A stretch of DNA of 41,156 bases. It comes from Thermoplasmatales archaeon (GTDB taxonomy: Archaea > Thermoplasmatota > E2 > DHVEG-1). The notes under the pieces are model-generated. The model saw only the letters and a program-made list of their open reading frames with translations, did not search any database and had not been told where the DNA came from. The number at the start of each line of letters is the position of its first letter. Position 1 is the stretch's first letter. Positions 21,152-23,051 of the stretch are shown here, piece by piece. The translations under genes and the position numbers were made by a program. Location: positions 116,353 to 157,508 of the forward strand of contig CP070712.1 of assembly GCA_020350365.1 (NCBI GenBank). The letters run 5' to 3'.

Positions 21152-22339
21152 TTAACCTAACCATTTTTTCTTCAGTTTTGGAAAAGAACTCTCATCAATT
21201 GACCTTCGGATTTCTCTCATTAACTCAAGCATAAAATATAGATTATGATAACTAATAAGATTATATCCAAGCAGTTCGTTTGTTTTAAAAAGATGATTAA
21301 TATAAGCTCTTGAATAATTCATACATACTTTGCATTTACAGTTAGGATCTAGAGGTTTTTTATTAGTTCTATAATTTATTGATGAAATTTTGATTCGAAA
21401 TTTGTTTTTCTTTGTACCAAGAGGTGGTTTAATATGAGAAAATCCACTTCTTGCAATTCTTGTTGGTGAAACACAATCAAATATATCTACCCCCCTCTCA
21501 ACTGATTCAAATATATCTTCAACCACACCAATTCCAAGAAGATGACGAGGTTTATTATCAGGCAGAAACGGAATAACCCAATCAAGGACATTATGCATAT
21601 CTTTTTTTGATTTCCCAAGTGAGCCTCCTATAGCATAACCATCAAAATTTAAAGAAGCAATATATTTTGCACTTGTTTTTCTAAGATCCTCCCAGTGCCC
21701 TCCTTGAACTATACCAACAAGAGCCTGGTCAGTCTTGTGAATATCTAAGCATTTTTTAGCCCATTTATGTGTACGCTCAAGACTATTTTTAGTATATTGC
21801 TTACTTGATAAGGGAGATGTACATTCATCTAAGACAAGAATCATATCTGCACCTAGTTTTTCTTGTATTTCTATTGATTTTTCAGGGGACAAAAACTGAC
21901 GTGAATTATCATAAATTGATCTAAAATAAATTCCTTTATCATTTAATTTAGCTATTGATTTTCCTTGGGGTTTACTATGTTTATAATTCTCACCAGGAAA
22001 AAACATTTTTCCAACAGCATGCTCTTTACCTAGACCTAAAGAAAAAGCTTGAAAACCTCCACTATCTGTAACAAGTGGTTTATCCCAATTCATAAATTTA
22101 TGAAGGCCACCAATCTTTGATACTACATCAGCATTTGGCTGCAGCATAAGATGATAAGTATTGCAAATAAGAACTTGGGCACCTATTTCGTTTAAGTCAT
22201 TTGTTGTTAGAGCCTTCACTGTTGCTTTTGTTGCAACAGGCATTAAATCTGGGGTTTTTACAACTCCATGTTTCAGTTTTAATAAACCTGTTCTTGCCTT
22301 TTTGTATTGAGATTTTACTTGAAAATCTAAAAATCCCAT
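21152..22339 (-). CDS. tgt: tRNA-guanine(34) transglycosylase, bacterial type
   Basis: The 395-residue protein follows bacterial/eukaryotic TGT, not archaeosine Tgt[10 protein letters not shown] near 60-68, then [19 protein letters not shown] with catalytic Asp92. Asp171 (LDECTSP) and Gln212 (GIVQGG) bind the base. The nucleophile is Asp288 in IFDCVSPTR. Cys334, Cys336, Cys339 and His365 bind zinc with the same last spacing (26) that I remember for the Zymomonas enzyme. There is no PUA domain, and the protein is not split. A roughly 25-residue insert follows SLG at about 102. The specificity loop reads GGSLGKSK rather than GGLAVGE. It swaps G34 of GUN tRNAs for queuine or a precursor. YhhQ is divergent 46 bases away. 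Lateral gain is likely. Confidence 0.9.
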
Positions 22340-22385
22340 ATAATATCGAAAAATTATAAGTTGATTAAATAATTTCTTCTTTTAA

Positions 22386-23051
22386 ATGATTAATGAGATA
22401 TTATGGATTGGTCTACTATTGTCAAGCTTTTTAATAGTCATATTTGCCTATAAGCTGTTTGGATTAACAGGGCTGTATGTCTGGACAGCTGTAGCTGTGA
22501 TACTTGCCAACATTCAGGTTATGAAAACAATACAGGTCTTTGGACTAGTGACTGCAATGGGAAATGTAATTTATTCATCACTTTTTTTAGTGACAGATAT
22601 TGTAAATGAGAACCATTCAAAAAAAGATGCTCAAAAGGCTGTATGGATTGGTTTCTTTGTTTTAATTACAACTACAATAATCATGCAGATAAGCATACAA
22701 TTTATACCTGATGAATCAGATTTTTTAAGCCAGCATATTACAGCAATATTTTCTGTGCTTCCAAGAATTGCTTTTGCAAGTTTAGTTGCTTATTTGATAT
22801 CTCAAAGTCATGATGTATGGTTTTTCGCAAAACTTAAAAAAAGACACAAAAAAAGATATTTATGGTTGAGAAATAATCTATCGACAGTCACAAGTCAACT
22901 TCTTGACAATATAATTTTTACATTAATTGCATTTGTAGGTGTGTTTTCTTGGAATATTATCGGACAGATCTTTTTAACTTCATTTATTCTCAAAGTAATA
23001 GTGGCAGCTTGTGATACACCATTTGTATACTTGGCTAGAAAAATAAGATAA
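22386..23051 (+). CDS. yhhQ: YhhQ/QPTR-type queuosine precursor transporter (DUF165)
   Basis: The 221-residue protein has about six membrane helices. Family features include AVILANIQVMKTIQVFGL, then GNVIYSSLFLVTDIVNENHS, the most conserved segment of YhhQ. Later come SQLLDNIIFTLIAF and KVIVAACDTPFVYL. YhhQ carries preQ0, preQ1 or queuine into the cell. The gene is divergent from the bacterial-type tgt with only 46 bases between starts, so the two probably share a regulatory region. Alternative use is import of preQ0 for archaeosine, but the partner here is not the archaeosine enzyme. It has no clear ribosome binding site. Confidence 0.88.
   Translation: MINEILWIGLLLSSFLIVIFAYKLFGLTGLYVWTAVAVILANIQVMKTIQVFGLVTAMGNVIYSSLFLVTDIVNENHSKKDAQKAVWIGFFVLITTTIIMQISIQFIPDESDFLSQHITAIFSVLPRIAFASLVAYLISQSHDVWFFAKLKKRHKKRYLWLRNNLSTVTSQLLDNIIFTLIAFVGVFSWNIIGQIFLTSFILKVIVAACDTPFVYLARKIR

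Follow-up and report, generated by a model that had tools for sequence, protein, structure and literature searches.

A divergent gene pair for a bacterial-type tRNA-guanine transglycosylase and a YhhQ-type transporter suggests queuine salvage in an archaeon of the Thermoplasmatota

In a window of 41,156 nucleotides (the whole stretch of DNA analysed here) from a sediment archaeon of the Thermoplasmatales, we found a pair of divergent genes, one for a tRNA-guanine(34) transglycosylase of bacterial type (Tgt) and the other for a queuosine-precursor transporter of the YhhQ family (QPTR). Our preferred reading, to which we give a probability of around 70%, is that the pair is a horizontally acquired cassette for the direct salvage of queuine, which would be imported and placed at G34 while the archaeosine of the cell is kept. 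The modification queuosine is commonly attributed to bacteria and eukaryotes, and a sequence-only reading of this DNA had called it unusual in archaeal tRNA. This has to be qualified, because QueA/QueH/Tgt genes have already been reported in 34 archaeal genomes (PMC8204110) and QueA lies beside Tgt in many Thermoplasmatota.

In the mechanism that we propose, queuine made by other bacteria would be released by tRNA turnover, the QPTR/YhhQ-type transporter would import the finished base and Tgt would exchange G34 for it in the tRNAs for Asp, Asn, His and Tyr. Queuosine would thus arise in a single step that needs none of QueF, QueA and QueG/QueH. One short divergent promoter region would drive both genes, and the pair would have been inserted at the 3'-end of tRNA-Ala(GGC). 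The archaeosine pathway would run alongside, with preQ0 coming from QueC/QueD and TgtA and ArcS then acting at G15. The identity of the genes, their pairing, the lack of QueA and QueF in the family, the short loop of Tgt, the island and its empty site are observed, and the substrate, the transport step and the tRNA target are the parts of this mechanism that we infer.

Regarding the identity of the genes, the sequence-only reading had described a bacterial-type Tgt divergent from a YhhQ gene with 46 bases between the starts, and both the open reading frames and the family scores agree with it. The TIGR00430 score of Tgt (469 bits) lies above the curated cut-off of 306.75, whereas its score against the TgtA model TIGR00432 (154 bits) falls below the cut-off of 350. 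PF01702 matched with 440 bits, and the Pfam scan of the 395-aa protein found no PUA domain, as had been claimed. The sequence scored higher as bacterial TGT (332 bits) than as QTRT1 (252 bits) or archaeosine TGT (76 bits), and the best Foldseek matches of its AlphaFold model (pLDDT 84, pTM 0.86) were the TGTs of Z. mobilis and T. maritima, with E about 1e-41. A phylogeny, which had been proposed as a check, places this Tgt outside archaeal TgtA, with TgtA set apart from all Tgts at 100/100. A DpdA-like role in DNA modification was also considered and rejected (NF041059, 31 bits against a cut-off of 200). The transporter, of the COG1738/YhhQ type, scored 216 bits with TIGR00697, above the cut-off of 50.95, and 48 bits with NF008406, the model of the E. 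coli-type preQ0/preQ1 transporter, below the cut-off of 252. A bacterial-type Tgt and a precursor transporter forming a salvage pair in a true archaeon is the best-supported reading.

The DSGGFQ-type active-site motif and the zinc ligands C334, C336, C339 and H365 were found at the positions given by the sequence-only reading and are invariant in 4/4 family members. The catalytic pair of aspartates, D92 and D288, is invariant in the alignments as well; we take D288 to be the position of the catalytic nucleophile, equivalent to Z. mobilis D280. The GGSLGKSK loop and the insert of roughly 25 residues that had been pointed out are both present and conserved in the family, and the insert (~25-26 residues) is of low confidence in the AlphaFold model (pLDDT < 50).

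Table 1. Coordinates in the window of the gene pair, of the main features of Tgt and of the island that carries them
Feature	Position	Strand	Details
tRNA-Ala (GGC), left island boundary	21075..21150	(+)	ARAGORN; Rfam tRNA 62 bits; 3'-end abuts the tgt stop
tgt, bacterial-type tRNA-guanine(34) transglycosylase	21152..22339	(-)	395 aa, ATG; TIGR00430 469 bits
Tgt zinc site C334, C336, C339, H365	21245..21340	(-)	Invariant in two alignments (A1, A2)
Tgt D288 in FDCVSPTR	21476..21478	(-)	Invariant
Substrate-specificity loop GGSLG, residues 238-242	21614..21628	(-)	Alignment; one residue shorter than GGLxVG
Tgt insert, residues about 103-128 (LGKEHAVGK...)	21956..22033	(-)	Common to Patescibacteria-like Tgts
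Divergent intergenic region, 46 bp	22340..22385	.	TATA-like boxes placed by eye: TTATAA 22354-22359 toward yhhQ; ATTATTTAATC (complement of 22363-22373) toward tgt
yhhQ/QPTR, queuosine-precursor transporter	22386..23051	(+)	221 aa, ATG; TIGR00697 216 bits, PF02592
Arylsulfotransferase-like protein, island passenger	23055..24758	(-)	PF05935
M28 peptidase, island passenger	25086..26387	(+)	PF04389
Degenerate copy of the tRNA-Ala 3'-end, right end of the island	26473..26500	(+)	20/28 identical

The pair was followed through a family sample of 45 genomes, among which the window's genome (G000) is a single contig of 1.82 Mb, 64% complete. Tgt occurs in 4 of them, spread over 3 genera, and in all four the divergent transporter gene adjoins it, with start-to-start spacings of 46, 46, 46 and 44 bp; the neighbourhood of the pair differs between genera. 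The closest named relative is Thermoplasmatales archaeon SG8-52-3 (phylum Thermoplasmatota), whose Tgt is 86% identical. The pair as a whole is 86% identical in SG8-52-3, with identities of 0.91, 0.95 and 0.74 at the three codon positions, a sign of purifying selection and not of chance. The 46-bp spacer is identical in the congeners G000 and G001, although at third codon positions the two genes agree to just 72-74%. By eye, TATA-like boxes can be placed about 24-34 bp ahead of each start, distances which would suit leaderless transcripts. Rfam gave no preQ1 riboswitch upstream of yhhQ, where 46 bp leave little space for one.

The pair belongs to an island block of 5.35 kb, together with an arylsulfotransferase-like gene and an M28 peptidase gene, which is bounded by tRNA-Ala(GGC) on one side and by a 28-nt degenerate copy of its 3'-end on the other; none of 1000 shuffles gave an equally good copy. 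The congener G002, which does not have the pair, shows the empty site, made up of a methyltransferase gene, tRNA-Ala(GGC) and an ArsR-type regulator gene, and the alignment to this site resumes exactly at the degenerate copy. In G001 a tyrosine recombinase gene (L177:304-1176) adjoins tgt, and its frame starts in a copy of the tRNA-Ala 3'-half, which marks an integrated element at this tRNA. This tRNA-Ala is thus a site of integration, and presumably a recombinase brought in the pair itself. The two passenger genes are on the island in the window's genome and not in G001, and the arylsulfotransferase-like gene is absent beside the pair in SG8-52-3.

Regarding the base that is salvaged, the 45 genomes of the family yielded neither QueA nor QueF; absence from G000 alone would weigh little, as this genome is 64% complete. 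Without QueA, imported preQ1 would remain preQ1 on the tRNA, so that the pair would yield queuosine only from queuine. The sequence-only reading had proposed salvage of queuine or preQ1. Salvage is supported, and the choice can be narrowed to queuine, the likely substrate judging from these gene contents. Its argument that no precursor-synthesis genes are in the window was a weak one, since queD and queC are located elsewhere in the genome, for archaeosine. A tgt with a QPTR and without QueA or QueG/H corresponds to the direct route of the Chlamydia type (PMC11570991).

Other Thermoplasmatota with Tgt do have QueA, usually adjoining (e.g. G057, G062, G083, G110). Actually, Tgt adjoins QueA in G055-G079, G083, G094, G098 and G105-G116 (loci L003-L031, L052-L059), and in many of these genomes QueF is present, YhhQ is absent and TgtA is also present; a de novo queuosine pathway can be predicted for them.

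The substrate-specificity loop of Tgt also differs with the presence of QueA. The loop reads GGL-S/A/C-V/I-G in QueA-bearing archaea and Bacillota, whereas it reads GG-S-L-G here, and it is followed by LGIG in this Tgt and by MGVG in those. Tgts that use queuine have the pattern GG[LS][AS]G and those of the preQ1 type GGLAVG (PMC11570991); GGSLG agrees with the former in length and in the Ser, but not in the Leu. In the Z. mobilis enzyme, Val233 of the full loop holds queuine off the productive position (PMC3660597). Loop length agreed with QueA status in 40 of 43 rows, taken from archaea and from small-genome bacteria that we assign to Patescibacteria: 19 of the 21 rows lacking QueA had the short loop and 21 of the 22 rows bearing it had the full one. 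Along the tree, loop length and QueA status switched no more than 3-5 times, too few independent changes for significance in a sign test, and the association is suggestive. Three Patescibacteria-like Tgts from genomes without QueA (L146, L147 and L151, in G243, G474 and G491) have the loop GGAHL/GGAHA and a changed pocket, with DDLESP for DECT and GVTHGG for GIVQGG, and possibly act on a different substrate.

These observations have to be weighed against other uses of the same genes. Bartonella has tgt and QPTR only, yet it inserts mainly preQ1 (PMC11570991), and therefore a tgt and a transporter alone are no proof of queuine use; moreover, the substrate of the transporter is not readable from its sequence, and a Bacillus protein belongs to the same clade. 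The pair could thus import preQ1 or preQ0 and leave preQ1 unfinished at position 34, but in Bartonella the loop of Tgt is the full GGLAVG, whereas it is short here, and the transporter stays under the equivalog cut-off of the E. coli preQ0/preQ1 type, so we consider this unlikely. Another use would be that Tgt places at position 34 the cell's own preQ0 from the archaeosine route, with the transporter supplying extra preQ0. Bacterial Tgts can accept preQ0, and with QueD and QueC present this base is probably made in the cell. Nevertheless, a cell making preQ0 needs no tgt-linked transporter, the YhhQ proteins of other family members form a different, unpaired clade and a short loop would not be expected, which leaves this explanation with a small chance.

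The search of the genome for tgtA, arcS and queCDEF that the sequence-only reading had suggested recovered part of the set. In G000 the genes for QueD and QueC are neighbours at a second locus, and ArcS (with a TGT remnant, DUF5591, C2 and PUA) is encoded at a third one, while neither TgtA nor QueF was found in this 64% complete genome. The missing TgtA is what would favour a replacement, in which the bacterial-type Tgt has taken over from TgtA and acts on G15. However, G001, G020 and G024, which are the other 3 of the 4 Tgt carriers, have both enzymes, and a protein without PUA scoring far under the TgtA cut-off makes such a replacement very improbable. Archaeosine is probably made in parallel, to judge from these genes. 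Both members of the pair are bacterial in type, as they would be if bacterial DNA had contaminated the assembly, but the pair is present in four genomes and is flanked by tRNA-Ala, L15, SecY and archaeal core genes in a synteny shared with G001 and G002, so that the chance of contamination is negligible. Direct queuine salvage is the reading that we keep.

Two other observations concern archaeosine in the family. In G015 and G034, which are 90-95% complete, the sole TGT match was ArcS-like and TgtA was not found, although ArcS requires a 7-deazaguanine at G15. Furthermore, a second and distinct YhhQ clade occurs in seven family genomes without Tgt (L184-L188 and L036, L040, L046), where it is perhaps a preQ0 importer for archaeosine.

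Among known systems, the salvage of the Chlamydia trachomatis type, with a queuine-specific bTGT and a QPTR (PMC11570991, PMC11130926), likewise combines Tgt with a YhhQ-family transporter, lacks QueA and QueF and has a shortened GGxxG loop. Unlike it, the pair described here is in an archaeal host that has a preQ0 and archaeosine pathway itself, has GGSLG and not GG[LS][AS]G, is divergent, lies on a tRNA-linked island and carries the 25-residue insert. Bacterial-type Tgts are also found in DPANN archaea and Methanosarcinales (Castelle et al. 2021, PMC8204110), co-localised with QueA and QueH and predicted to finish queuosine on the tRNA, whereas the Tgt described here has a transporter as its partner and no QueA. 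Archaeal TgtA has the TGT catalytic fold in common with this Tgt, but its target is G15 and it bears C1/C2/PUA domains at the C-terminus. Both the gene families and the route are already known from bacteria. An archaeal queuine-salvage cassette was not found in the open-licence literature searched, outside which most subscription papers lie, and priority is uncertain. What would be new is that archaea use queuine in the manner of a vitamin, taking it up, and have de novo archaeosine-15 together with salvaged queuosine-34, that short-loop Tgts shared with Patescibacteria have been exchanged between domains and that the short loop is a general marker of queuine Tgts outside the known host-associated cases; we hold the chances of this to be evenly balanced. 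The compact cassette makes archaeal Q34 directly testable. If the reading is true, members of sediment communities would be exchanging a tRNA base much like a vitamin, and loop length against QueA absence would offer a simple sequence rule for separating queuine-type from preQ1-type Tgts in uncultured lineages.

As for the origin of the two genes, the nearest Tgts outside the family come from a bacterial phylum of mostly 0.5-1.6-Mb genomes, presumably Patescibacteria to judge from the size and number of these genomes, and many of them share an insert after residue 101 (e.g. GFGYEHGVGK, GAGREHSIGK). With all columns, the family's Tgt nests within the Patescibacteria-like Tgts (95/96) and its placement outside them is rejected (p 0.0145); without the insert and loop columns, a tree that joins it to other archaeal Tgts is also acceptable (p 0.249). 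A Patescibacteria-like origin of Tgt is thus a possibility. The transporter is nearest to proteins of Fusobacterium (50% identity) and Bacillus (40%), followed by the transporter of the small bacterial genome G167, and it is distinct from the second YhhQ clade of other family members. A single Patescibacteria-like donor for both genes was not supported for the transporter, which groups instead with YhhQ of the Fusobacterium/Bacillus type.

Patescibacteria-like loci resemble the pair in having GGSLG, neighbouring Tgt and transporter genes, no QueA and, in many cases, the insert. In G167 (L192:5690-7538) yhhQ and tgt overlap in an operon, without QueA and with the loop GGSLG; unlike the archaeal pair, these genes run in the same direction, and they are less similar to it (about 45-50% identity for Tgt, 35% for YhhQ). 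In Fusobacterium vincentii (L229:5282-5995) the closest YhhQ overlaps an ORF with a CX4CX2C motif, which matched no Pfam or NCBIfam family and which may be a radical-SAM queuine lyase similar to QueL.
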